A DNA stretch of 64,000 nt from Saccharicrinis fermentans DSM 9555 = JCM 21142 (GTDB taxonomy: Bacteria; Bacteroidota; Bacteroidia; Bacteroidales; Marinilabiliaceae). Shown here piece after piece: positions 6,883 to 46,494 of this stretch. Positions within the stretch are counted from its first letter, which is position 1. Each line of letters begins with the position of its first letter. Below the pieces are notes generated by a model that saw nothing but the letters and a program-made list of their open reading frames with translations, did not search any database and was not told where the DNA came from. Both the position numbers and the translations under genes were made by a program. The stretch spans positions 4,647,980-4,711,979 of the forward strand of contig NZ_KI912107.1 of assembly GCF_000517085.1 (NCBI RefSeq). The letters are read 5' to 3'.

Positions 6883-9492
6883 ATGCTGAAACATTTTACA
6901 CTTTTCTTTATCATTCTCACTATACTCCCCACTTTATCATTTGCTCAAAATCAGGATAATGTGCCCGTTATAAGCTATTCGGCAACTCCCCGTAAATACG
7001 AGATAGCTGAAATTAACGTCACAGGTATCCAAAATTATGATCCAAAAATCCTCGTGAACCTTTCAGGACTTCGGGTTGGACAAAAACTGAATGTTCCAGG
7101 TGAAGAAATATCGGAAGCTATTCGAAAATATTGGGAACATGGACTTTTTTCGGATGTGAAAATTGTAGCCACTAAAATTGAATCCGGAAAAATATGGCTC
7201 GAAATTCAACTGTTGGAGCGACCTCGTTTGTCAGATATCAATTATTATGGCCTGAAAAAATCGGAAGTTGAAACTGTTTCTGAAAAAGTAGCCATGATGA
7301 AAGGAAGTCAAGTAACTCCTTATTTGATTACACGATCTGAGAAATATATTACTGATTATTTTGTGGCCAAAGGCTTTTATAATACTGAGGTTCGTGTAGT
7401 ACAAAAGGATGATACCACCCAAGTAAACCATGTCTATCTGGATATTACCGTAGATAAAAAAGAGAAAGTAAAGGTTCGTTCTCTTGAGTTTTTAGGTAAT
7501 ACTGTATTTTCAGATAGTAAGTTGAACCGAACCATGAAGAAGACCAATGCTAAAGGAAAAATAAAGAATTTCTTTCGTACCAAAAAGTTTATCAACGAAA
7601 CTTATCAGGAAGACCTTGTGGCTGTAATAGATAAATACAATGAGTTTGGTTATCGTGATATGATTATCGATTATGACTCCATTGCTAAAAATGATGATAA
7701 TACAGTAGATATTAAAATTAAGGTTGAAGAAGGAGCTAAGTATTACTTAGGGGATATTTCATGGATTGGAAATAGTATTTACCCTGGGGAGTATCTGAGT
7801 GCTATGCTGCGTTTGAAAAAAGGAGATGTTTTTAACCAAAAATTATTGGATGAGCGCTTGTTTCAGGATGATGATGCGGTGCATAATTTATACATGAATA
7901 ATGGTTACCTGTTTTCGAATATTCAACCTGTTGAAGTAAATGTGTATGGTGATACCATCGATTTAGAGATGAGAGTGTATGAAGGAAAACAAGCTACTAT
8001 AAATAATATTGTTATTAATGGTAATACCAAAACGCATGAACATGTGGTTCGTCGTGAAGTGCGTACCAAACCGGGACAGTTATTTAGTAAATCAGAATTG
8101 ATTCGTACCATACGTGAGCTATCACAATTGGGGCATTTTAATCCGGAAAATATCCAACCTGATGTACAACCGAATCCTGAGGATGGTACTGTTGACCTAG
8201 TATATAACCTCGAAGAGAAAGCCAACGACCAGATAGAACTTTCAGGAGGTTGGGGAGCAGGTATGTTTGTGGGATCTCTAGGTCTTAAGTTTTCTAACTT
8301 CTCTGTTCGTAATATATTTAACAAAGAGTCTTGGCGTCCTTTACCTACAGGTGATGGTCAAACATTGTCCTTAAGGGCGCAGACGAATGGAAAATATTAC
8401 CAATCATATAGCTTTTCGTTTACCGAGCCTTGGTTGGGAGGGAAAAGACCAAATTCCTTAACCGTTTCGGCTTACCGCTCTATTCAATCGAGTGTTTCGG
8501 ATAGTTATTATAGTAATTATAACAGTTACTTTAGCAGCGGTTCATATGGGGGCTACGGTAATACTTATGGATATTCACAATATGACGCTTCTGATTTTGA
8601 TCAGCATATGAAAATATTTGGAATATCAGTTGGTTTTGGAAAACGTTTGACATGGCCTGATGACTGGTTCTCTTTATACGCCGAAGTGAGTTATCAACAC
8701 TATGACCTACTGGATTGGCAGTATTTTATCATGCAAAATGGAGTGTCACAGAATTTACATTTTAAATTTATTTTTTCACGTAACTCTATTGATAATCCAT
8801 TGTATACACGTAGAGGATCTAATTTTTCTTTCGGCGTAGAATTTACACCTCCTTATTCGGCCTGGATTGATAAGAATTATAAGAGTCTGTATAATACGAC
8901 TATCTCTGGGGATACGGATGAGAGAGCTGATGCTCAGGAAGAATTATACGATTATATCGAATATCATAAGTGGACCACCCAAGGATCTATCTTTACCCCT
9001 CTTGATAAATCTGAAAAGTTAGTATTGATGGGAAAATACGAGATGGGATTTTTAGGGTATTACAACGAATATGTTCGCTCTCCGTATGAAAAATTTATGC
9101 TGGGAGGAGATGGAATGTCGGGCTATAGTATGTATGGTAGCCAAACTGTAGGTTTAAGAGGGTATGAAAATTCATCCTTAACGCCCAGAAACAGATATGG
9201 TAGTTATGATGGTAACATCTATAATAAACTCACCTTTGAAATGAGATATCCATTGACCTTACAGCCATCAGCACAGGTGTATGCATTGGGATTTCTCGAG
9301 GCCGGTAATGCTTGGAGCGATTTTCAAGATTATAATCCTTTCGACCTAAAACGTTCTGCTGGTGTTGGTGTGCGTATCTTTCTTCCTATCTTTGGTTTGA
9401 TGGGGATAGATTGGGGTTACGGATTTGATGAAGCACAAGTTCAAGGTTCCAATGGAAGTCAATTCCACTTTGTGATTGGACAGCAATTTTAA
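6883..9492 (+). CDS. bamA: Outer membrane protein assembly factor BamA
   Basis: 869-residue Omp85 protein, the core of the beta-barrel assembly machine. A signal peptide (MLKHFTLFFIILTILPTLSFA) precedes several POTRA repeats (starting IAEINVTGIQNYDP, INYYGLKKSE, VRSLEFLGNTVFSDSKL, ISWIGNSIYPGEYL and INNIVINGNTKTHEHVVRRE). The C-terminal half is a 16-strand-type barrel containing GYSMYGSQTVGLRGYEN (the conserved VRGY-like loop) and ending in FHFVIGQQF with a terminal Phe. It is co-directional with uppS upstream and three Skp-like chaperone genes downstream, its functional partners. Confidence 0.96.
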   Translation: MLKHFTLFFIILTILPTLSFAQNQDNVPVISYSATPRKYEIAEINVTGIQNYDPKILVNLSGLRVGQKLNVPGEEISEAIRKYWEHGLFSDVKIVATKIESGKIWLEIQLLERPRLSDINYYGLKKSEVETVSEKVAMMKGSQVTPYLITRSEKYITDYFVAKGFYNTEVRVVQKDDTTQVNHVYLDITVDKKEKVKVRSLEFLGNTVFSDSKLNRTMKKTNAKGKIKNFFRTKKFINETYQEDLVAVIDKYNEFGYRDMIIDYDSIAKNDDNTVDIKIKVEEGAKYYLGDISWIGNSIYPGEYLSAMLRLKKGDVFNQKLLDERLFQDDDAVHNLYMNNGYLFSNIQPVEVNVYGDTIDLEMRVYEGKQATINNIVINGNTKTHEHVVRREVRTKPGQLFSKSELIRTIRELSQLGHFNPENIQPDVQPNPEDGTVDLVYNLEEKANDQIELSGGWGAGMFVGSLGLKFSNFSVRNIFNKESWRPLPTGDGQTLSLRAQTNGKYYQSYSFSFTEPWLGGKRPNSLTVSAYRSIQSSVSDSYYSNYNSYFSSGSYGGYGNTYGYSQYDASDFDQHMKIFGISVGFGKRLTWPDDWFSLYAEVSYQHYDLLDWQYFIMQNGVSQNLHFKFIFSRNSIDNPLYTRRGSNFSFGVEFTPPYSAWIDKNYKSLYNTTISGDTDERADAQEELYDYIEYHKWTTQGSIFTPLDKSEKLVLMGKYEMGFLGYYNEYVRSPYEKFMLGGDGMSGYSMYGSQTVGLRGYENSSLTPRNRYGSYDGNIYNKLTFEMRYPLTLQPSAQVYALGFLEAGNAWSDFQDYNPFDLKRSAGVGVRIFLPIFGLMGIDWGYGFDEAQVQGSNGSQFHFVIGQQF

Positions 9493-9553
9493 TTGTGGAT
9501 TGATTTTTGAGATACAAAAAACTAGATGTAGTGTTTAACCAATAATTATAGAC

Positions 9554-10066
9554 ATGAAGAAAATAGTTTTTATTGCGATAATACTTGGAATGAGCTTTGC
9601 GCTACAAGCGCAAAAATATGCTTTTGTGGATACTGAGTATATATTAAAGAATATACCAGCATTTGAGGCAGCTAATGAACAATTGAACCAGACTTCGCAG
9701 GGCTGGCAGAAAGAAATAGAAGCCATTTATGCAGAGGTGGAAACCATGTATCAGAACTATCAAACTGAGAGTGTGTTTTTGTCGAATGAGATGAAAATTA
9801 AAAAAGAAGAAGAAATTGTTGCCAAAGAAAAAGAAGCGCGTCAGCTGCAAACAAAGTACTTTGGACCAGAGGGTGAACTAGGAAAGAAACGCGAAGCGCT
9901 TATTAAACCGATCCAAGATGAGATCTATAATTCCATACGTGAGATGGTAGAAGAGGATGGATATGCGGCAATATTTGATAAAGCATCGGGCGGTGTTGTT
10001 TTATTTTCCGATTCAAAATACGATATTAGCGACGATGTTTTAGAAAAACTGGGATATAAAAAATAG
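9554..10066 (+). CDS. OmpH/Skp-family periplasmic chaperone (copy 1 of 3)
   Basis: 170-residue secreted protein with signal peptide MKKIVFIAIILGMSFALQA and the OmpH pattern: KYAFVDTEYILKNIPAFEAANEQL, a long highly charged coiled coil (about 40-125), then a beta segment YAAIFDKASGGVVLFSDSKYDIS. Skp-like proteins hold unfolded outer-membrane proteins on the way to BamA. This is the first of three tandem copies and diverges most from the other two in its coiled coil (GPEGELGKKREALIKPIQDE). Confidence 0.93.
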   Translation: MKKIVFIAIILGMSFALQAQKYAFVDTEYILKNIPAFEAANEQLNQTSQGWQKEIEAIYAEVETMYQNYQTESVFLSNEMKIKKEEEIVAKEKEARQLQTKYFGPEGELGKKREALIKPIQDEIYNSIREMVEEDGYAAIFDKASGGVVLFSDSKYDISDDVLEKLGYKK

Positions 10067-10114
10067 AAAGTGACATAGGCGCATTGGAGTGTATGTTATA
10101 TTAATACTTAATTT

Positions 10115-10639
10115 ATGAAACTGATTAAACAACTTTTTATTGGATTGGCTCTGATGGGTAGTACTACCATGGTGTCGGCACAATCCAATTTTAAATTCGG
10201 ACATGTCAATACAAATGCACTATTGTCAACCATGTCTGAATTGCAAACAATTGACCAGCAGTTAAAAAGCGAATACGAAACGCTGGAAGGACAATTGACT
10301 ACCATGCAGGAAGATTTGAAAAAACTTCAAACGGATTATCTTACAAAATTACAGGCAGGAACCATGGCTCCAGAAGAAAGAGCTAATCTGGAAACGCAGT
10401 TGCAGGAAACAAATGCCAAGGTTCAAAACTTTTATCAGACATCGCAGCAGTCGCTGCAGCAGAAAGAACAGGAACTGAAAAAGCCTATTTATGATAAGGT
10501 CAGTAATGCTATTCAGGAAGTGGGAGCTGAAAATGGTTTTCTATATATCTTTGAGGAAGCAGGTGGACTGGCCGTTTATAAGTCTGAAAAAAGTATGGAT
10601 GTATCAGACTTGGTAAAAAAGAAACTAGGAATTCAATAA
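10115..10639 (+). CDS. OmpH/Skp-family periplasmic chaperone (copy 2 of 3)
   Basis: 174-residue Skp-like chaperone: signal peptide MKLIKQLFIGLALMGSTTMVSA, the entry strand FKFGHVNTNALLSTMSEL, a coiled coil rich in Gln and Glu (LQQKEQELKKPIYDKV), and the exit strand ENGFLYIFEEAGGLAVYKSE. It is more similar to copy 3 than to copy 1 (shared FGHVN, EVGAENGF and IYIF/LYIF blocks). Spacing to its neighbours is 48-49 bases on each side, consistent with one transcript. Confidence 0.94.
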   Translation: MKLIKQLFIGLALMGSTTMVSAQSNFKFGHVNTNALLSTMSELQTIDQQLKSEYETLEGQLTTMQEDLKKLQTDYLTKLQAGTMAPEERANLETQLQETNAKVQNFYQTSQQSLQQKEQELKKPIYDKVSNAIQEVGAENGFLYIFEEAGGLAVYKSEKSMDVSDLVKKKLGIQ

Positions 10640-37339: not shown

Positions 37340-37846
37340 TTATCGAACCATTATTTTCCAACCATCTTTCATTTTGTGTTTTATCTTATTATCCGGAAAA
37401 ATTAGTTTGAGTGAGATACTGGTAAGGAGTCCTGCGCCTGTTGAAAGTAATATTTGTTGAGAACTATTTAAATGATCACCGTGGCTGCGAACGGCATAGT
37501 AGGTTCCCAATGTTGCACCAATGGTAAGTGTGGATTTTAAAAACATGGCACCTGCCGAAACTTTTCTAAATCCATGGATGTCTTCAATGCGTATTGTTTT
37601 TGTGTTGATGGGGTTGGAAAATAAGCGGGGCTTGCCCATGGTAATGGTACTGTCATTTAATTCCAGTATGTAATTCGATTCCAGTTCCATTTGCTGCAAG
37701 TATCCGCGGTATTTCAGCACAACTAATCCTCCTTTACGTAACTGAATTGCCTCTGCTTTATGCTGATTATAAAATATCACGACACTCTTTTGTGCGTTTG
37801 TATATAAAGCTAACAAAAGGAATGCCATTAAAATGCAATGCCTCAT
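37340..37846 (-). CDS. Hypothetical exported protein
   Basis: 168 residues, not recognised. A signal peptide (MRHCILMAFLLLALYTNAQ) is followed by a beta-rich middle with short basic and acidic strands (GGLVVLKYRGYLQQMELES, LELNDSTITMGKPRL), then two weakly hydrophobic stretches (FLKSTLTIGATLGTYYAV and QQILLSTGAGLLTSISLKL) that may be membrane helices. It is a single gene on this strand, convergent with the carbamoyltransferase. A copy of the hairpin/start-like repeat lies 70 bases upstream. Confidence 0.6.
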   Translation of the reverse strand: MRHCILMAFLLLALYTNAQKSVVIFYNQHKAEAIQLRKGGLVVLKYRGYLQQMELESNYILELNDSTITMGKPRLFSNPINTKTIRIEDIHGFRKVSAGAMFLKSTLTIGATLGTYYAVRSHGDHLNSSQQILLSTGAGLLTSISLKLIFPDNKIKHKMKDGWKIMVR

Positions 37847-37914
37847 TTTCTTTTTTTTGTAAAAATAATAGAAAAACCTTAGCCTAACATTATTTATATT
37901 GTCTTCCTGGGAAT

Positions 37915-37984
37915 AAAAAAAGGGAGCATTTCCGTTGAGATGCTCCCTTTTAAACTTAAACCCTAATCTATGAAAAAAAACTTA
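37915..37984 (-). repeat. Repeated hairpin/start-like element, copy 1
   Basis: Hairpin AGGGAGCAT/ATGCTCCCT (37921-37948) joined to TAAACTTAAACCCTAATC then TATGAAAAAAAACTTA. On the minus strand the hairpin is followed by a T run (37915-37920), the form of an intrinsic terminator, so the element can be read as a short terminated minus RNA. On the plus strand the ATG at 37970 opens a 30-codon frame starting MKKNLNSFVFMWFLK that ends within copy 2. Confidence 0.45.
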
Positions 37985-38013
37985 AACTCTTTCGTGTTCA
38001 TGTGGTTCTTGAA

Positions 38014-38084
38014 AATAATCGAGACATCGAGTGATGCCTCGATTATTAAACTTAAACCCTAACCTAATCTATGAAAAACTTAAT
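38014..38084 (-). repeat. Repeated hairpin/start-like element, copy 2
   Basis: Hairpin AATAATCGAG/CTCGATTATT (38014-38047, with an inner CATC/GATG stem) joined to TTAAACTTAAACCC, an extra TAACC, then CCTAATCTATGAAAAACTTA. The ATG at 38071 opens only a ten-codon frame (MKNLIALLTK). The hairpin sequence differs from copies 1 and 3 while the start-like block is conserved. Confidence 0.45.
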
Positions 38085-38321
38085 TGCTCTTCTGACTAAA
38101 TAATTACAATTTATATGCCATAAAACTGGCATATTATCAAATTAACACATATTAACCAATGTGTTAAAATTATATATTTTGTTATAGAAAATCCGTTGCA
38201 CAGTATACCCTTTTTGTCTATTTTTAGGCCATTGAAATTTTACAAATCGATTGGTAATTATAAATACTAGGTAGCTATTATTTACTAATCGACCATAGGC
38301 ACAACTGATTCATTTTTTTAT

Positions 38322-40841
38322 ATGCATACTATGATTGACAAATTAAAATCATTCTTCCCTTACATTGGAACCGTATTGTTATTTATTGTTTTGAGCTTTG
38401 CCTACTTTAGTCCAGTGCTAAAAAACAAAACCCTATTGCAAATGGATGATAGTCATGCGATTGGTATGGCACAGGAGCTGAAAGAGTTCGAAAAGGAAAC
38501 AGGTAACAAATCACAATGGACCAACAGTGCTTTTAGTGGAATGCCCGCCTATCAAATCAAGGGGGATAGTTCAAAAAATATATTCTCTTATATTAATAGA
38601 ACTTCACGTTTAGGAATGCCTTATCATACCGTGGCCATTTTATTTTTGTATTTACTGGGTTTTTATGTGTTTCTTCTTAGTTTAAAAATGGATTGGCGTT
38701 TTAGTCTCATCGGAGCGTTGGCGTTTGGTTTTGGCTCCTACAATCTAATTATCATTGTTGCCGGTCATATAACGCAAGCTTATACCATTGCTTTGATGGC
38801 ACCTGTTATTGCGGGAATTATTTATACTTACAATCGTAATATTTGGGTGGGGGGATTGTTTACGACCATCGCTTTGGGTGTTCAAATAGCCTACAACCAC
38901 ATACAAATCACGTACTATTTGGCCTTACTGGTGATGATATTGGTGGTGTCGCGATTGGTATATGCCATCCTTCACAAAACCCTGCATCAGTTTGCGAAGG
39001 CAACAGGAGTTTTAGCGGCAGCGGCACTGGTGGCTGTATTGCCTAATATTACTAATTTGTGGACAACCTATGAGTATGGAAAGTATAGTATCCGAGGTAA
39101 ATCGGAATTGGCTGCAGAAGACGGAAAAAAACAGCATAGTGGTTTGGATAAGGATTATGCGCATGCCTGGAGTCTCGAGCCACAAGGTACCTGGACTCTT
39201 ATGGTTCCTAATGTTGTTGGGGGTGCCTCTGAAGCCATCTCTAATAACAGGGCTGCTTTGAATAATGTTGACAGTCGTTTTAAGGAGGCTGTAGGTGGTC
39301 AAAGTCAGTACTGGGGAGGAAGACCTTTTACTTCTGGGCCGGTATATGCAGGTGCGGTGGTTTGTTTTTTATTTATGCTAGGTATGTTCTTTTACCGAGG
39401 ACCAGATAAATGGTGGCTGGTTGTAGCTACTGTCTTTTCCATTTTTTTAGCATGGGGAAGGCACTTTCCTGCGTTTACTGATTTTATGTTTTATAATTTC
39501 CCTCTGTACAATAAGTTTCGTACCGTTGAAATGGCCATGGTCATCGCATCGCTCACCATTCCTACGCTTGGTTTTTTAGGGCTCCGTGAGGTGTTTACCA
39601 AACCGCAACTGATTCGTGAGGCCAATTGGAAGTTTTTTGCAGCTTTTGGACTAACAGGAGGAATCAGTTTGTTATTTTATCTATTTCCTCATGCATTTTT
39701 TAGTTTTATCAATGATACAGAGTTAAGTGCTATTGTTCAACAAAAACAGCAGGCTATACAGCAGAATGCGGCGCAGGCTTCACAAATATCGGCCTATTTT
39801 GACGGATTCTTGGCCAATCTTAAACTTGCCCGTGTTAACTTGCTGAAGATGGATGCCATCCGGTCTTTTATTTTTATTCTGATTGCTTCTGCATCGCTGT
39901 GGTTTTTTGTGGTTAATAAATTGTCGGGCAAATATTTAATTTGGGGTTTAGGTTTATTGATTATTATTGATCATTGGGGTGTTGACAAACGTTATTTAAA
40001 CAACGATGATTTTCAGAGCAAACGAAAAGTAGGTCAAGAATTTGTATTAAGCGCTTCTGATAAAGCTATCAATCAACAAAAGAAGGATGGAGAGCGCGTG
40101 TTTTCTATTTATAGAGATCCTTTTAAAGAGGTAGTGACTTCATACCATCATGAATCCATTGGCGGCTATCATGGAGCTAAATTGCGTCGATATCAGGATT
40201 TGATTGATAGATATTTAATGAATGATTGGAGATCTTTACTTTCATTATTACAGCAGCAAAGTGATCAAGAGTCTTTACAGGATCAATTAGGCGAAATGCA
40301 TGTACTAAACATGTTGAATGCCAAATATATTGTGTATAGTCCTAATGCTGCACCTATTGTAAATGCCAATGCCATGGGAGATGCCTGGTTTGTCAAAGAT
40401 ATTTATCCGGTACAGGCTCCGGATGGAGCAATTGATGCACTGTCATATGTACCATTAGACCAAAAGGCCATTGTAAATGTTGAGGAATTCAAAGATCTCG
40501 AATCATACTCCATTGATTCGGTGGCAGGGTCTCTTGAAATGAAAAGGTATGAGCCAAACCATATTGTTTATGACTATTCCATTGGTCAGGAGCAGTTGGC
40601 CGTATTTTCGCAGATTTATTATCCCAAGGGCTGGAATGCGTATGTTGATGGAGAAAAGATATCCATCAACAGGGCTAACTATATATTAAGAGCGGTGTTG
40701 CTGCCTAAAGGTAAGCATCAGCTGGAGTTTAAATTTGAACCTTTATCTTATCAAATAGGACAGTTGATATCAATGATAAGTTCGCTGTTGATATTGGCTT
40801 TGGTATTGTTTGCAGCATATAGATTGCTCAAAAGAAAATAA
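38322..40841 (+). CDS. YfhO family membrane protein
   Basis: 839-residue polytopic protein with about 13 helices and a large loop. It begins MHTMIDKLKSFFPYIGTVLL (ATG 38331 is an alternative start) and has the family start FSPVLKNKTLLQMDDSHAIG. A soluble region (about 560-780) ends in the YfhO mark FSQIYYPKGWNAYVDGE followed by YILRAVLLPKGKHQLEFKF, and there is a final helix. Bacillus YfhO is a GT-C-type protein involved in glycosylation of lipoteichoic acid; the Bacteroidota members have no proven role. The acidic MDDSH in the first loop suits a GT-C active site. Confidence 0.87.
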   Translation: MHTMIDKLKSFFPYIGTVLLFIVLSFAYFSPVLKNKTLLQMDDSHAIGMAQELKEFEKETGNKSQWTNSAFSGMPAYQIKGDSSKNIFSYINRTSRLGMPYHTVAILFLYLLGFYVFLLSLKMDWRFSLIGALAFGFGSYNLIIIVAGHITQAYTIALMAPVIAGIIYTYNRNIWVGGLFTTIALGVQIAYNHIQITYYLALLVMILVVSRLVYAILHKTLHQFAKATGVLAAAALVAVLPNITNLWTTYEYGKYSIRGKSELAAEDGKKQHSGLDKDYAHAWSLEPQGTWTLMVPNVVGGASEAISNNRAALNNVDSRFKEAVGGQSQYWGGRPFTSGPVYAGAVVCFLFMLGMFFYRGPDKWWLVVATVFSIFLAWGRHFPAFTDFMFYNFPLYNKFRTVEMAMVIASLTIPTLGFLGLREVFTKPQLIREANWKFFAAFGLTGGISLLFYLFPHAFFSFINDTELSAIVQQKQQAIQQNAAQASQISAYFDGFLANLKLARVNLLKMDAIRSFIFILIASASLWFFVVNKLSGKYLIWGLGLLIIIDHWGVDKRYLNNDDFQSKRKVGQEFVLSASDKAINQQKKDGERVFSIYRDPFKEVVTSYHHESIGGYHGAKLRRYQDLIDRYLMNDWRSLLSLLQQQSDQESLQDQLGEMHVLNMLNAKYIVYSPNAAPIVNANAMGDAWFVKDIYPVQAPDGAIDALSYVPLDQKAIVNVEEFKDLESYSIDSVAGSLEMKRYEPNHIVYDYSIGQEQLAVFSQIYYPKGWNAYVDGEKISINRANYILRAVLLPKGKHQLEFKFEPLSYQIGQLISMISSLLILALVLFAAYRLLKRK

Positions 40842-40858
40842 GAAAGAATTGTTAGATA

Positions 40859-40893
40859 AAAAAAAGGGAGCTACATGCTCCCTTTTTTTTATT
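40859..40893. terminator. Bidirectional terminator between yfhO and the PP2C gene
   Basis: AGGGAGC - TACAT - GCTCCCT with an A run before and eight T residues after, between convergent genes; it can serve both. Confidence 0.85.
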
Positions 40894-42126
40894 TTATCTG
40901 AATTCTAGCCCGGTAATCGATATGTCGTCAAAAACAGAACCTCTTTCAAGCTGTACTTTAATTAAGTCTTTGAGTGATTCCATGTTTGTTTCAATATCGT
41001 TGGCATCGGAAATTATGTCCTCAATGGGTTTCATGCCCGATTCAATTTGATCACCATTTTCAAGTTCCACCAAGCCATCCGTAAAGGCCAGGAATTTTGA
41101 ATTTCGGGGAATACGGATGCTTCCGGTTTCAATAGTTGGGATTTCGTCAAGCATACCCAAGCCGATACACCCTTTGTCAAGGTGGCTGAGTTGTTTCTTT
41201 TTGCGGTCAAATAACATGGGGGGTAAATGACCTGCATTTATATAGGTGAGTTTTCGGGTCAGGGTATTGTATTTACCCAAAAACATGGTGATGAATTTTT
41301 CGTTATTGGCACTCATATTTACTCTTTTGTTGAGTGCGTGAGCCAGCCGCTTAAGGTTGATGGTGGGAGTGTACAGGGTACGAAAAACCGCTTGAAAGTT
41401 CGACATCAATATGGCGGCTGATATTCCTTTTCCTGAAACATCGGCAATACAAAAACCAAGAACGTTTTTAGAGAGTCTAATAAAATCGTAGTAATCACCT
41501 CCTACCTCAAACTGAGGGTGGTAAAAGGTGTGAATAGAATATTTGGTACTCACCGGAAGATGGTCGTCAGAGGGAACAAGTTTCGATTGAATACGAGAGG
41601 CTAGTTCCATCTCTTTTCTCATGGCTTCCTGCTCAAGGAGCTCATTCTGCATCCTTTTGTTCTCAATGAAAACAATGATCAGGTTAGAGATAATCTGTAT
41701 TAATTTCAGGTGCTTAATGGTAGGACTTATGCCTTTCTGTTCTTCATCCACATCTCCAATTAAAACAAAGCCGATAGCTTTGTATCGGTGAAAAAGTGGA
41801 ATGACCGCATCAAAGCCCTTTAGTTGAGGAGGATGCGATATGGTAATGTTTTCTATGCTCTTGTATTGAGCTAGGTCGCGTTCTACATTTATATCGGCCA
41901 CTTCTTCTTTGGTTACACCGGAATTGAGCAGGTTTTCCCATTTCCCATCTCCATAGGTAAAAACCAATATTTTGCCTACCTCAAGTTCTTCGCGTAAAAG
42001 TATCTCAAATTCAGACAGTAAATCGTCTATACTGTGGTCTTCATTGATTGTTTGAGCAATTTCCAACAGAATATTCAACCTATCTTTAAAAAGTCGTAGT
42101 CTCTTTTTTTGAAGTTGGGTTACCAT
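40894..42126 (-). CDS. PP2C-type serine/threonine phosphatase (RsbU/SpoIIE-like) with GAF-like sensor
   Basis: 410 residues. A GAF-like domain (about 15-150, including VIPLFHRYKAIGFVLIGD) is linked by a helix (NELLEQEAMRKEMELASRIQ) to an SpoIIE phosphatase domain with FEVGGDYYDFIRL, CIADVSGKGISAAILMSNFQ, YINAGHLPPMLF, LAFTDGLVELEN and a final DDISI. All metal-binding Asp residues are present. Such phosphatases usually act on anti-anti-sigma (STAS) proteins in partner-switching regulation; no partner gene is nearby. An IS701-family element is inserted 51 bases upstream of the start codon. Confidence 0.9.
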   Translation of the reverse strand: MVTQLQKKRLRLFKDRLNILLEIAQTINEDHSIDDLLSEFEILLREELEVGKILVFTYGDGKWENLLNSGVTKEEVADINVERDLAQYKSIENITISHPPQLKGFDAVIPLFHRYKAIGFVLIGDVDEEQKGISPTIKHLKLIQIISNLIIVFIENKRMQNELLEQEAMRKEMELASRIQSKLVPSDDHLPVSTKYSIHTFYHPQFEVGGDYYDFIRLSKNVLGFCIADVSGKGISAAILMSNFQAVFRTLYTPTINLKRLAHALNKRVNMSANNEKFITMFLGKYNTLTRKLTYINAGHLPPMLFDRKKKQLSHLDKGCIGLGMLDEIPTIETGSIRIPRNSKFLAFTDGLVELENGDQIESGMKPIEDIISDANDIETNMESLKDLIKVQLERGSVFDDISITGLEFR

Positions 42127-42173
42127 AGAATATTATAAACTTAACTTGCTGGTAAGGTATTAAATTTTTTGAC

Positions 42174-43702
42174 CTAATTCTACTTTAACAGATTTATTGC
42201 TTTGAATAACAGAGGTCTATGTCACGCTGTCGCTTTTCATGTCGCTGCTGCAGTTTTTCCAGCATCCGTTCATCGGTCATTTCACGATAAAATTTGTATA
42301 CCATAAAATCCATAATGTCTCTTGCCGACAACAATGGGACTTCGTCTTGATTCAATAGTTTTTCTTTCAGCATAAAGCTGCCCACCATTAAGTTGAGGGC
42401 TACTTGGTGATGCCATGACAGCCATTTGCGGGTTTGGAACTGATCCAAGCCTACTATCTGTTTTTGCTCTTTGAAGCTATGCTCAATGAAAAAGCGTTGT
42501 GCCTGCATGTATGCCAGCGCCTGATGCGTGTATTGAGCAAGTTCTGCGTTAGTGAACGAATATTTTATTTCTACTCCCTGCTTTGTCTTTCTTTTCGAAA
42601 TGACCAGCAACCGTTTCTCAACAATGTTCTGAACCTTATCCCAAATGTAAACTGTCTTAAAATGGAACAATCCCTTCAGCTTTCCCTTGGCAGAATCACG
42701 AATGTCAAGCTTTTTCCAGTCCTTGTTTGTAAGCGTTTCTATATATTCGTTAGCGTTTACCGATGGGGTGCTTGCCTTCGGCCTTTTGGGTGGGCGCCCA
42801 CGATTGCTCTTTCGCTCTGGAATATGTAGTTCTGGTTTTTCAAGGTGGATTTTTTGATCGCTATGAATGTCAAGCATGTACACCAAACCCATATCCTCAA
42901 CCGAACGGGTAAACGCAAGGTCATTGCCATAAAGTCCATCCCCCCCAACGTAATCGAACTCGATACCCATTTCCAGTTGGTGCTTCACAATATCTGTAGC
43001 CAGCTCCGGTTTTGTCTTGAAAACCCTGTCCTCTTTGGGGATGCCAGCAGTTTCACACCTGGCGTTGTTAGTACACCATGACCTTGGAAGGTACAGTCTC
43101 GTGTCGACCAACGCTGCATATTTGTCCGTGCACAAGCAACCAAAAACTGCAACCTGCGAGTTTGCAGTCTTCCCAACGTTCCCGCAATACTGGTGATCAA
43201 CACCAATGCTTTTGTCACCTTTTTTCACCCATCCGCTTTCGTCTATGAGTAATCCTTTTAATTTTTGGTTTGGGAGTGATTGGTCTACCTGATTTGCTAT
43301 TTGGTCGATGACAGCTCTTGCATCCCAATTGGATTCGGTGATAAAATGCTGCATCTTATGGTAGTCTGCGTTTAATGTCTCAGTGATGCGTTCGATGTTT
43401 TTCAAATCGCTTAAAGCTAGACCTTCGACGTATTGAGTAGCTTTGTCGAAGTTGGATTTTGTTCTATTTTTAAAATGGTGCTGAAATTCAGATAAATACA
43501 CTTCAAGTCGGTTGTTGACCGCTAGCAGTGTTTTACCATTATTCGTATATTTTTTAAGTTTTTCGCCCGTTACCCATTGCAAACTTGAGTTTTGTTCTTT
43601 GTTTCAATTGCAATATACTAATTTACTGTTTATTACGAAAGAAAAACAATACTAAATTATCGTTTTTTCAGTGATCATTTTAATCTGTTAAAGTAGAACT
43701 AA
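42174..43702. mobile_element. IS701-family insertion sequence with 4-bp target duplication
   Basis: Complete element of 1521 bp (42178-43698). The ends carry the same 17-bp inverted repeat: TTCTACTTTAACAGATT at 42178-42194 and its exact complement at 43682-43698. The flanks on both sides are CTAA (42174-42177 and 43699-43702), the 4-bp direct duplication expected for the IS701 family. The transposase gene is intact and reads toward the PP2C gene. The perfect ends and duplication mark a recent insertion. Confidence 0.93.
42194..43582 (-). CDS. IS701-family transposase
   Basis: 462-residue DDE transposase, full length for the family. First catalytic region: LKGLLIDESGWVKKGDKSIG (Asp) with QYCGNVGKTANSQVAV. 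Second: FDYVGGDGLYGNDL (Asp). Third: RFFIEHSFKEQKQIVGLDQF (Glu). The frame opens at TTG 43582 (MQWVTGEKL); no earlier start is possible because a stop codon lies just upstream, so the annotated start is likely. It is bounded by the inverted repeats described for the element. Confidence 0.92.
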   Translation of the reverse strand: MQWVTGEKLKKYTNNGKTLLAVNNRLEVYLSEFQHHFKNRTKSNFDKATQYVEGLALSDLKNIERITETLNADYHKMQHFITESNWDARAVIDQIANQVDQSLPNQKLKGLLIDESGWVKKGDKSIGVDHQYCGNVGKTANSQVAVFGCLCTDKYAALVDTRLYLPRSWCTNNARCETAGIPKEDRVFKTKPELATDIVKHQLEMGIEFDYVGGDGLYGNDLAFTRSVEDMGLVYMLDIHSDQKIHLEKPELHIPERKSNRGRPPKRPKASTPSVNANEYIETLTNKDWKKLDIRDSAKGKLKGLFHFKTVYIWDKVQNIVEKRLLVISKRKTKQGVEIKYSFTNAELAQYTHQALAYMQAQRFFIEHSFKEQKQIVGLDQFQTRKWLSWHHQVALNLMVGSFMLKEKLLNQDEVPLLSARDIMDFMVYKFYREMTDERMLEKLQQRHEKRQRDIDLCYSKQ

Positions 43703-43788
43703 AGAAAATGTATTTTCTTTATATCGTAATAAAGTGTATTCTTGTTAAGCGTAATTCTAAAAACATGCTTTGCTGATAAAACCAGAAA

Positions 43789-43812
43789 AAGCCCTGATGT
43801 TTACCGGGCTTA
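43789..43812 (-). terminator. Terminator of efp
   Basis: On the minus strand AAGCCC - GGTAAACATCA - GGGCTT followed by TTTCTGG, 19 bases after the efp stop codon. Confidence 0.65.
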
Positions 43813-43830
43813 ATCATTTATTGGTTATTA

Positions 43831-44400
43831 TTATTTTTTAACACGTTCAACGTAAGAACGATCACGGGTATCAACCTTTATCCAATCTTCCGTGTTTACA
43901 AATAATGGAACCATTATTTGGGCACCAGTGTCTATGGTAGCCGGTTTTAATGAGTTGGTAGATGAGGTATCGCCTCTAACACCTGGTTCGGTGTAGGTAA
44001 CTTCAAACTCAATATGCATGGGAAGATCAACAAGAAGTGGTGTTTCTGTATCGGCGTGATAAACTACTTCACAAGCCAGACCATCTTTTAATAGGTCATG
44101 ATTTTCGATTAGTTTTTCCTCTATTGTAACCTGATCATAAGTTTCGTTGTTCATAAATACGTAACCCATGTCGTCTTTATACAGATACTGGTATGAACGA
44201 CGCTCAACACGTTGCTCATTGATTTTGTGTCCTGCCGAAAAGGTATTATCGATTACTTTTCCTGTAGAAATGTTTTTCAGTTTGGTGCGTACGAAAGCCG
44301 GACCTTTACCTGGTTTCACATGCTGAAACTGCACTATTGCATACAAGTCGTTCTTGAATTCAATACACATCCCGTTTCTGATATCAGCGGTAGTTGCCAT
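43831..44400 (-). CDS. efp: Translation elongation factor P
   Basis: 189-residue EF-P that rescues ribosomes stalled at polyproline. It has three beta domains; the tip loop of domain I is KPGKGPAFVRTKLKN with Lys at the modification site. MATTADIRNGMCIEFKN is the standard start, so ATG 44400 is used in place of the frame start at 44454. No gene for the beta-lysyl modification system is nearby. A -7-like TATTTTTG (44441-44448) lies upstream on this strand. Confidence 0.96.
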   Translation of the reverse strand: MATTADIRNGMCIEFKNDLYAIVQFQHVKPGKGPAFVRTKLKNISTGKVIDNTFSAGHKINEQRVERRSYQYLYKDDMGYVFMNNETYDQVTIEEKLIENHDLLKDGLACEVVYHADTETPLLVDLPMHIEFEVTYTEPGVRGDTSSTNSLKPATIDTGAQIMVPLFVNTEDWIKVDTRDRSYVERVKK

Positions 44401-44524
44401 AGTGTTATAAATTAATTCTTTTGGTAATTTTTTTGTGGTGCAAAAATAAATCAAATACTTAGAATTGCTAACAATTATGGGGATTAATTGACCATTGAAC
44501 AGCTAATTAAGTATTTTTAGGCTT

Positions 44525-45316
44525 TTATAGCTTCCCAAGTTTATTTTTGAGGCCTTTATGTTCGGTCAAATCACAGCTAAAAGATCCCACTTTTAGGTTG
44601 ACCTTTGCTTTAATGGGAATCCTATTTTTGTCACGTGTTACCCAAACCTTCATGTCTTCTTCTGTTTCAAAAACACGTCCCACTTCTGTTACGGGATGAA
44701 AAAGATAACACTCTCTATTTCCGAAGGCTGTAGAAATTCTTTCATTGCCCATGTATTTAATTTTTAGAGGGAAAATTTCGTCACTAAAATAGGTGGTGAA
44801 CTCTAATATGTCACCCACTTTCATGGCGTCGTTAAACTTATATCTACGGGCGTAGTAAAAAGCAGATACAATATCATGTATAGTGGGTGGAACTCTTACA
44901 TTCCCTGATTTTTTACTGTGGATCGTGATGGAATCATCATGTAAGGTAGTGTAATCGTAGGTGACTTCGTTGTAGTATTTGTAGCGTCCCTCTCTTATGT
45001 CTCGCACTGACTTTAAGGGTTGATCTGATGTTGGATCAATATAGCTGATGTAGGTGTCCCGGACTTTAAAGATAGCGTCTACCATGCCAGATGTTTTGGC
45101 AAACAGTTTTAGTTCTTGGGTGTGAGTTCCTTCCCATAGGGTATCTTTCACGGTGAATGAAATGTAACCGCCTTTTATGAAGCCGTATTTGAGACTGTAT
45201 GTTAATTTTTCACCGGACTGATAAGTCTGGTTCTCACCGGTGCTGGGCTTGTTTTGAGCTGTAAGATTAACAACGCCCAATAACAGCAGTACTATAAAGG
45301 TGATGTGATGATGCAT
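44525..45316 (-). CDS. DUF3108 exported protein
   Basis: 263 residues. Signal peptide MHHHITFIVLLLLGVVNLTAQ suggests ATG 45316 as the start (45343 also possible). The mature part begins YQSGEKLTYSLKYGFIKGGYISFTV, the DUF3108 signature of a beta-rich envelope protein, and contains VRDTYISYIDPTSDQPLKS, YFSDEIFPLKIKYMG and VWVTRDKNRIPIKAKVNLKV. It may fold as a lipocalin- or barrel-like periplasmic protein; function unknown. It starts 44 bases after tsaB and lies 124 bases before efp on the same strand. Confidence 0.87.
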   Translation of the reverse strand: MHHHITFIVLLLLGVVNLTAQNKPSTGENQTYQSGEKLTYSLKYGFIKGGYISFTVKDTLWEGTHTQELKLFAKTSGMVDAIFKVRDTYISYIDPTSDQPLKSVRDIREGRYKYYNEVTYDYTTLHDDSITIHSKKSGNVRVPPTIHDIVSAFYYARRYKFNDAMKVGDILEFTTYFSDEIFPLKIKYMGNERISTAFGNRECYLFHPVTEVGRVFETEEDMKVWVTRDKNRIPIKAKVNLKVGSFSCDLTEHKGLKNKLGKL

Positions 45317-45360
45317 AACAGACAATTTGATGGGATGAAGCATGAGCGATCATGCTATTT

Positions 45361-46068
45361 TTATAAAACCTTTTTTTTAGGAGTGGTTGCTACAAAATCT
45401 TTAAGGTAAAAAGGCTCAAAATAAGCAGTATCTTCAAAATCTGATTCTTCAAATTTTCGGTGGGCAAGGAGAACCATATTTGAAGCCAAGGGCGCCTGGG
45501 CATCTAAAAATAGCGCATTGGGATGCACAATGGTTTCCTTACATTTTTCTGCTCCATCGCCCAAAAATACGATGTGATGATGATGGAGTATTGCTTGGTA
45601 GCTGGTTTCGTCTATGATTTTGGCATTAATTTTTTCAACCAGCTTTAGCTTGGTATCGAACAAGGCTGTATACACTTCCATTCTACGGGCATCTATCATG
45701 GGGCAATACAGTGTATCTGGCTTTGTTTTGTCCGCGAGGTCAGGGTGGTTAATCACTGCCTGTGCCAAACATTCCAATGAAGTAATCGCAATCAATGGTT
45801 TATTGAGTGCATAGCAAATGCCCTTGGCTACAGAAACGCCAATGCGTAACCCTGTATAGGAGCCCGGACCACTGCTTACGGCAACAGCATCAATGTCCTG
45901 AATGCTTAAATCCGGTAGGCTCTTAAATAAATCCTGTATAAAAACGGTTAGGTGCGTTGCATGAGAGTTGGCTTCAAAAAGTTCCTTTTTAGCCAAAATG
46001 GTACTGTTGTTGGATAAACACACCGAACATACTTTGGTGGATGTTTCCAGAGAAAGAATGATTGCCAT
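45361..46068 (-). CDS. tsaB: tRNA threonylcarbamoyladenosine biosynthesis protein TsaB
   Basis: 235-residue inactive Kae1/Qri7-like partner of TsaD in making t6A37 of ANN-decoding tRNAs. Visible blocks: LSLETSTKVCSVCLS at the N-terminus, VDAVAVSSGPGSYTGLRIGVSVAKGICYAL (listed in part, about 57-90) and MIDARRMEVYTALFD. The metal His pair of the TsaD type is absent, as usual for TsaB. It heads a minus-strand run with the DUF3108 gene. Confidence 0.93.
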   Translation of the reverse strand: MAIILSLETSTKVCSVCLSNNSTILAKKELFEANSHATHLTVFIQDLFKSLPDLSIQDIDAVAVSSGPGSYTGLRIGVSVAKGICYALNKPLIAITSLECLAQAVINHPDLADKTKPDTLYCPMIDARRMEVYTALFDTKLKLVEKINAKIIDETSYQAILHHHHIVFLGDGAEKCKETIVHPNALFLDAQAPLASNMVLLAHRKFEESDFEDTAYFEPFYLKDFVATTPKKKVL

Positions 46069-46494
46069 AAATATTTCGTGTTACTAAGTGTGCGAAAATA
46101 ATACTTTTTGTTTTGATTTGTCCCAATGGCCTTAAATAAAAAAAGAGTCGTTCTTTTGAAACGACTCCTTTTCTAACCTAAACCCTAATCTATGAAAAAA
46201 CTTACTCTTGCTTTATGGTACGCAGAAAGAAGCTATGTGTTACATGCTTTTTCTTTAAAGCCAGTTTTCTTTACGTTATTACTGTGTCAATAGCTGTATT
46301 GGAAGTAAACAAAGGCTGTGCCGAATGGGGTGCTGTGTTTATTATTTAACTTTAATTAACAAGAAAAGGACTAAAGTGTTACAGGTAGTTGGAATTGACT
46401 GGGCACTAGATGGAAATAAATTTGTAAACAAAGTGACCGTTTGCATATTTTGTTATTTTTGTGCTTTGACTTTTTACGCAACAAGAATGAATCA
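46069..46494. other. Divergent intergenic region with repeat copy 3
   Basis: 426 bases between tsaB (-) and the dCMP deaminase (+). The repeat copy at 46138-46205 is the only structured part; a -7-like TATTTTTG at 46454-46461 probably belongs to the promoter of the deaminase gene. Nothing else was recognised. Confidence 0.45.
46138..46205 (-). repeat. Repeated hairpin/start-like element, copy 3
   Basis: Hairpin GAGTCGTT/AACGACTC (46145-46167) joined to CCTAAACCCTAATC and TATGAAAAAACTTA. The minus strand again ends in a run of seven T residues (46138-46144). The ATG at 46192 opens a 33-codon frame (MKKLTLALWYAERSYVL). The start-like block equals copy 1 at nearly every position although the hairpin arms differ. 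Confidence 0.45.

Follow-up and report, generated by a model that had tools for sequence, protein, structure and literature searches.

In Escherichia coli, the sigma-E response raises DegP, and the small RNAs (sRNAs) RybB and MicA act at the starts of outer-membrane protein mRNAs. The Qrr sRNAs of Vibrio are made from sigma-54 promoters with LuxO. To our knowledge, little is known about envelope-stress control in the Bacteroidota, which depend on TonB receptors. FopS has been described as a Bacteroides sRNA family that pairs at the susC start codon and thereby represses translation, and that binds RbpB; the same report also names the Bacteroidaceae as the carriers of FopS, describes GibS as carrying two different seeds and refers to Qrr as a multicopy sRNA family (PMC11697453). 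In Flavobacterium psychrophilum, chaperone and envelope genes, Skp/OmpH and one putative sRNA (Rfp36) are reported to have sigma-54 promoters (PMC9723704). Judged by titles and the openings of abstracts, we found no open-access paper tying FopS-like RNAs to sigma-54 or degP.

Here, we analysed a 64,000-nucleotide stretch of the Saccharicrinis fermentans genome (the window). An earlier note on this DNA had described a three-copy element in which each copy has a different hairpin, and this was borne out by exact matches to the block CCTAATCTATGAAAAA at 37962, 38063 and 46184 and by plus-strand folding of the hairpins beside the three blocks, whose arms differ per copy and whose z-scores against shuffles run from -4.35 to -5.33. 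No further copy of CCTAATCTATGAAAAA was found at up to one mismatch elsewhere in the 5.98 Mb genome, and an exact 23-mer search of viral contigs gave no match. On the minus strand, the hairpins of copies 1 and 3 are followed by the U-runs that the note had seen as T runs, while copy 2 lacks one, being the inner of the two hairpins in the predicted transcript of its unit. The three blocks fall into two predicted minus-strand transcription units, A and B. In both, a direct repeat GTTAA-N5-GTTAA precedes a sigma-54 -24/-12 promoter, after which come a seed block (UUUUUCAUAGAUUAGG..) and an intrinsic terminator; in unit A the seed and hairpin are present twice. The parts of the two units are as follows.

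38142..38156, minus strand: unit A direct repeat GTTAA-N5-GTTAA, a putative activator site 20 nt upstream of the -24 element
38106..38121, minus strand: unit A sigma-54 -24/-12 promoter ATGGCATATAAATTGT, a 14/16 match 27 nt ahead of the seed
37915..38095, minus strand: unit A small RNA, predicted at ~181 nt with its start placed 12 nt past the -12 element
38048..38078, minus strand: unit A first seed block (copy 2 of the earlier note), from the block match
38014..38047, minus strand: unit A inner hairpin without a U-run, from folding and the alignment of inner units
37952..37981, minus strand: unit A second seed block (copy 1), from the block match and alignment
37915..37951, minus strand: unit A intrinsic terminator hairpin and U-run, from folding and stem covariation
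46346..46360, minus strand: unit B direct repeat GTTAA-N5-GTTAA, 21 nt upstream of the -24 element
46309..46324, minus strand: unit B sigma-54 promoter TCGGCACAGCCTTTGT, a 14/16 match, but 109 nt ahead of the seed
46138..46298, minus strand: unit B small RNA, predicted at ~161 nt
46226..46256, minus strand: unit B 5' hairpin, from folding
46174..46200, minus strand: unit B seed block (copy 3), from the block match
46138..46173, minus strand: unit B intrinsic terminator hairpin and U-run, from folding and the Rfam alignment

The 198-nt stretch around unit A (37910-38107) folds with a z-score of -7.14 and the stretch around unit B (46135-46308) with one of -2.88. A repeat slightly looser than GTTAA-N5-GTTAA is found in 0.5% of random 75-nt windows. 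As a background for the unit B promoter, a score of at least 14 is reached somewhere within the scanned 172 nt by 3.8% of random windows, and much of the case for this promoter therefore comes from the repeat. The 5' hairpin of unit B may be what is left of an earlier first unit of seed and hairpin.

The block is present at up to one mismatch in all nine genomes of the genus, our own genome included, and is exact in eight, although some of the one-mismatch matches (e.g. L013, L015 and L025) are not elements. Across the genus the blocks are mostly paired at a spacing of 96 to 103 nt, two pairs being wider apart (139 and 149 nt), and this pairwise spacing in relatives indicates that copies 1 and 2 form one unit. 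For the terminators, we aligned 35 of 44 units, leaving out three spurious ones, five close copies from one relative (G001) and one unit that was shifted to the inner set; the inner alignment holds 18 of 21 inner units plus the shifted one. The terminator stem covaries: 91.9% of cells are paired, and both sides have changed in 46 cells, compared with a shuffled mean of 16 and with none of 500 shuffles reaching 46, for a structure that was derived from the alignment on which it was tested and with kinship among sequences able to exceed such shuffles. Sliding the stem partner lowers the covariation measures. In the 19 inner units, both-side changes occur at nine of the ten predicted pairs. The seed block is almost invariant in both alignments, in agreement with the earlier proposal that the hairpins vary but keep pairing while the start block is kept.

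The gene neighbourhood in the genus bears on two other explanations. The gene yfhO lies 181-369 nt beyond a unit in seven of the nine genomes, and tsaB shares a locus with a unit in five of nine. A dispersed, non-autonomous repeat of the REP or MITE kind, spreading itself and having no regulatory role, might explain the 11 double units of G001 and the clusters of units in another relative (G037). However, the recurrence of a unit ahead of yfhO, the covariation of the stem and a promoter type held in common with degP (see below) all speak against such a repeat, and we consider it very improbable. The units could also act as attenuators in the leaders of the minus-strand genes downstream of them (37340-37846, and tsaB at 45361-46068), with transcription stopping or reading through at the last hairpin, an alternative already raised in the earlier note. 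Both genes do lie just past a terminator, and for tsaB this proximity to a unit is the one found in five of nine genomes. By tblastn, however, the protein encoded at 37340-37846 has no match in six other yfhO-slot loci or in nine G001 loci, so that no conserved same-strand downstream gene was found for unit A across these 15 loci. Moreover, a same-strand ORF of at least 80 aa starts within 1500 nt in only five of the 11 G001 units, these five ORFs show no mutual similarity, and the centroid folds of both units retain the terminator. Attenuation therefore fits worse than a free-standing sRNA and is in our view quite unlikely, although it may hold for tsaB itself.

The promoter evidence again indicates the minus strand. 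Beyond the block, the best promoter form is TTGGCAC-N5-TTGC. Among 35 genus transcripts (37 listed, less two spurious), 28 have a sigma-54 element scoring at least 13/16, and in 25 of these 28 the -12 element lies 22-30 nt before the first seed, a score and distance that 1.3% of random windows attain. The other three promoters, one of them that of unit B in the window, are 104, 109 and 118 nt from the seed, and in the two besides unit B a diverged first unit can be recognised by eye between promoter and seed. Since 18% of random windows score 13 somewhere in the scanned stretch, the three far promoters lean on the repeat as well. Seven of the 35 transcripts lack a sigma-54 element: one is cut off by a contig end, and six make up a single-unit subfamily with a different upstream region, which includes the tsaB-side copies of four relatives. 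Eight candidate sigma-54 activators are present in our own genome. Together with the covarying terminators and a resemblance to FopS, the sigma-54 promoter and its repeat support the minus-strand small RNA family proposed in the earlier note. Judged by sequence, the elements are very probably sigma-54-driven sRNA genes that are related to FopS and carry tandem seeds. The earlier note had noticed neither the promoter nor the two-seed architecture, nor that degP has a promoter of this type.

The same observations weigh against the other alternative that had been put forward, a plus-strand reading in which the blocks are receptor-gene 5' ends that have been duplicated or have decayed. It is true that a 5' UTR with an MKKNL-like start can be read on the plus strand, that exported-protein genes in other Bacteroidota open with exactly this block and that one of these genes (L080) has a TonB-receptor-like N-terminus. 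Yet the plus frames behind the window blocks are short, the sequence that follows differs between copies by eye, and promoter, repeat, spacing and covarying terminator all point to the minus strand. Gene remnants of this kind are thus the poorer fit and are extremely unlikely.

A pattern that combines the repeat with the sigma-54 promoter gave 26 matches in the nine genus genomes, compared with none for the reversed pattern. These 26 matches comprise 18 sRNA units (both window units among them), seven degP/htrA-type genes and one gene for a DUF1573 exported protein. The seven degP/htrA-type starts belong to one orthologous gene, six of them having been matched by eye to our own copy from their translations. 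The gene of our own genome is DegP/HtrA-like, with Trypsin_2 and PDZ domains, and scores 404 bits over a fragment against TIGR02037, below the cut-off of 416. We regard a promoter type common to the sRNA units and degP within the genus as well supported. Outside the genus, across 393 Bacteroidales genomes, the pattern does not outnumber its reverse (32 versus 37 matches). Among the 27 of these 32 loci that we read, five precede proteins with Trypsin_2 and PDZ domains, that is, DegP-type proteases, and both of the two (out of five) that were run passed TIGR02037. Four loci precede a seed and hairpin; model R1, which was built from the genus units plus five looser ones, recovers two of these (L404 and L405) and misses the other two (L386 and L391). 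Single loci precede genes for ClpB, Hsp20, PorX and Bax1-I, and the others precede different genes or no ORF. By judgement rather than by a formal statistic, we think that the gene content behind these matches goes beyond chance.

We then examined pairing partners. The genome has 86 Plug-domain matches, none of them in the window, which agrees with the earlier remark that no TonB receptor is encoded there. Of the 86 loci, 70 were read (30, then 40 held-out), and the 67 with an ATG start were used, 38 of them held-out, with start codons picked by a signal-peptide script. Three of five seeds were more complementary to TonB-receptor starts than shuffled seeds, the held-out set included. At the 38 held-out starts, dinucleotide shuffles that kept the UUUUUCAU head of the seed yielded tails as good as the real one in 0/120 cases for SA_1, 3/120 for S54_c3 and 5/120 for S54_u1, and in 47/120 for S54_u2 and 30/120 for SA_2. 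With plain tail shuffles, the corresponding counts were 0/200, 11/200 (borderline), 6/200, 136/200 and 87/200, all counts standing per seed, uncorrected across the five seeds tried. S54_u2 thus fails with the held-out starts, and SA_2 with both sets of TonB starts. The sigma-54 seeds had no effect at 113 other exported-like starts or at the remaining 142, and SA_1 had a slight one, with 7/60 and 18/60 shuffles as good, respectively. For three seeds, the best duplexes touch positions -10 to +10 in 62, 63 and 63 of the 67 TonB starts, a placement that is favoured because the seed holds the complement of AUG.

Scans without this selection gave a different picture. Duplex energies at 260 unselected gene starts, a set that mixes true and false starts, showed no excess over shuffled seeds, with S54_u2 below its control. 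The 14-mer CCTAATCTATGAAA at up to two mismatches is rarer in the genome than its reverse (58 versus 92 matches). Seven of the 58 matches are sRNA copies, 46 were examined and five without an ATG were left out. One site, at window positions 10107-10120, lies over a true start codon (window 10115), and the gene concerned is OmpH/Skp-like and adjoins another ompH and an Omp85 gene; a single such site among 58 may be due to chance. Three more sites are close to an ORF start but do not use its ATG, and the start at L336 is ambiguous. Near-perfect targets of the seed are nearly absent. The suggestion that mRNAs of this genome share the whole start block therefore did not hold, there being no further block and fewer 14-mer matches than for the reverse, whereas SusC/TonB starts as the class to pair with gained support from the statistical complementarity. 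The scarcity of near-perfect targets would suit a sigma-54 sRNA that works as a sponge, or as a decoy to which an RRM protein such as RbpB binds, and does not pair with receptor starts, and the binding of RbpB described for FopS would suit it too. This is unlikely, given that the seeds are more complementary to TonB starts than to others and that this effect hinges on the order of letters in the seed. Repression of TonB receptors by the sRNAs is the reading that the complementarity favours somewhat.

The relation to FopS was assessed with Rfam. At gathering thresholds, Rfam returned two tRNAs and no family for the elements. With relaxed thresholds, the top family on the minus strand was FopS (RF04319), with 34.6 bits (E 0.0011) for one terminator unit and 30.7 bits (E 0.0066) for the other, model positions 1-71 aligning to both, and the inner unit scored 21.4 bits (E 0.41). 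The window units stay below the FopS gathering cut-off of 56 bits, which is passed in none of the nine genus genomes and in one of 14 control genomes. At E up to 1, the FopS model also finds matches in Bacillus subtilis and Methanocaldococcus jannaschii, which means that a low score cannot by itself serve as proof. Because the RF04319 cut-off was tested and not reached, assigning the elements to this family is not justified; they are FopS-related rather than certified members. GibS (RF04182) spans both units of A at 24.7 bits (E 0.18), far under its gathering score of 115 bits.

At E up to 0.01, model R1 finds matches in 116 of the 295 Bacteroidales genomes sampled, which suggests that FopS-like RNAs extend well beyond the Bacteroidaceae. 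In a sample of the class, searched at E up to 0.001, 20 of 295 genomes have a match, and 12 of the 20 belong to other orders. We surveyed promoters for 114 of 132 R1 matches, having dropped overlapping loci and weak, opposite-strand or cut matches. The primary-sigma motif TAnnTTTG lies within 35 nt of the seed in 51 of the 114 Bacteroidales units, compared with 4.2% of random positions, and among the units listed several are FopS-like in having TAnnTTTG with TTTTTCATAGTATTAGATTTAAGG shortly after. A strict sigma-54 site is present in six of the 114 units, one of them in the window, and at 0 of 13,971 random positions. The window units do not have the primary-sigma TAnnTTTG promoter next to the seed that FopS has; they have sigma-54 instead. 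In our own genome, diverged copies at C3:4863765, 3370689 and 4824282 and weak diverged copies at 5501113 and 5501264 have TAnnTTTG near the seed, and the copy at 3161341 has it only at a greater distance. As both kinds of copies are found, one superfamily appears to use two promoter classes.

These findings are consistent with a sigma-54 envelope-stress regulon, which we consider probable on sequence grounds, comprising DegP and trans-acting minus-strand sRNAs that would repress TonB receptors. A sigma-54 activator may act via the GTTAA direct repeat to switch on the sRNA genes together with degP/htrA. The predicted RNA would expose a single or a double FopS-like seed, unpaired, ahead of its hairpins, of which the final one is the terminator. 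The seed would pair around the AUG of TonB-dependent receptor mRNAs and block ribosome entry, as FopS does on susC, and envelope stress would thereby raise the periplasmic protease and lower the synthesis of new outer-membrane receptors. The analysis supplies a candidate regulon (degP and the sRNAs) with its promoter, a putative activator site and a candidate target class.

Compared with known systems, the window elements are most like FopS of Bacteroides thetaiotaomicron, with which they share an unpaired 5' seed opening with UUUUUCAU, an intrinsic terminator after it, a multicopy nature and complementarity to TonB/SusC starts, which in the window elements is statistical. They differ from FopS in their sigma-54 promoters, where a primary-sigma promoter is reported for FopS, in the two seed-hairpin units of the single RNA predicted for unit A and in sharing a promoter type with degP. 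GibS likewise consists of two parts and has an R1-like seed with a terminator further on, but its two seeds differ, whereas unit A repeats one seed. In promoter logic, the elements resemble Qrr as multicopy sRNAs with sigma-54 promoters and an upstream activator site, a putative one here, although signal and targets are others. By description, Rfp36 of F. psychrophilum is similar as a putative sigma-54 sRNA of the Bacteroidota whose regulon includes many envelope and chaperone genes (PMC9723704). The likeness to RybB and MicA is also one of logic: the envelope-stress regulon proposed here would raise DegP and direct sRNAs to outer-membrane mRNA starts, with sigma-54 and an activator in place of the ECF sigma factor of E. 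coli. We tentatively propose that this is a Bacteroidales sigma-54 counterpart of sigma-E logic, in which one activator and one repeat site might induce degP along with FopS-like sRNAs that silence the large set of TonB receptors, in which swapping between primary-sigma and sigma-54 promoters might have split the FopS superfamily into nutrient- and stress-control branches, and in which doubled seeds might raise the dose of the stress branch.

Further FopS-like copies of the unit, a predicted small RNA gene composed of seed and hairpins, were found in the S. fermentans genome (G000), with primary-sigma-like promoters (TAnnTTTG):

C3:4863765, FopS-like copy
C3:3370689, FopS-like copy
C3:4824282, FopS-like copy
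C3:5501113, FopS-like copy
C3:5501264, FopS-like copy

Complementarity to the translation starts of TonB-receptor genes was strongest for SA_1, the seed of these copies. In another genome of the same family (G037), units were clustered at C35:31056-31906 (L186), C26 and C19; five of them lie within about 850 nt, and the clustered units carry a variant seed, TTCTTCATAGAATAAGGGTTAAGG. In the window, a DDE_5 transposase gene (42194-43582) is located between units A and B.

A single-unit subfamily, in which the sigma-54 element is absent, comprises the following loci:

L032:4045, single unit
L033, single unit
L035:12637, single unit
L036, single unit
L047:15957, single unit
L051:10573, single unit

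Upstream of the seed, most members share CGTATCA(T/A)G together with CTAAAGAGTAA, and some occupy the unit position near tsaB.

The GTTAA direct repeat with a sigma-54 site also precedes genes for PorX, ClpB, Hsp20 and Bax1-I [L398 (G080), L399 (G330), L396 (G347) and L388 (G180)], which are either regulon members or chance occurrences. At G000 C3:3413251 (L365), a gene for a DUF1573 exported protein carries this repeat and site, and within the genus search it did so in G000 only. A weak unit match (L401 in G146; 28.1 bits, 810-871) was found some 600-700 nt away from a DegP-type gene with its own repeat and sigma-54 site.

At window positions 6883-10639, two OmpH/Skp-like genes come after an Omp85 gene. 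A block-like 14-mer seed complement at 10107-10120 (two mismatches) covers the start of the second OmpH/Skp-like gene, the sole start codon so covered among the sites examined. This gene is a candidate additional target of the predicted small RNAs.

In other Bacteroidota (L059, L065, L079, L080, L069 and L107), genes with signal-peptide-like N-termini start at the exact conserved block, the sequence that forms the seed on the minus strand. One such gene, in Flavivirga rizhaonensis, is a 1024-codon TonB-receptor-like frame.
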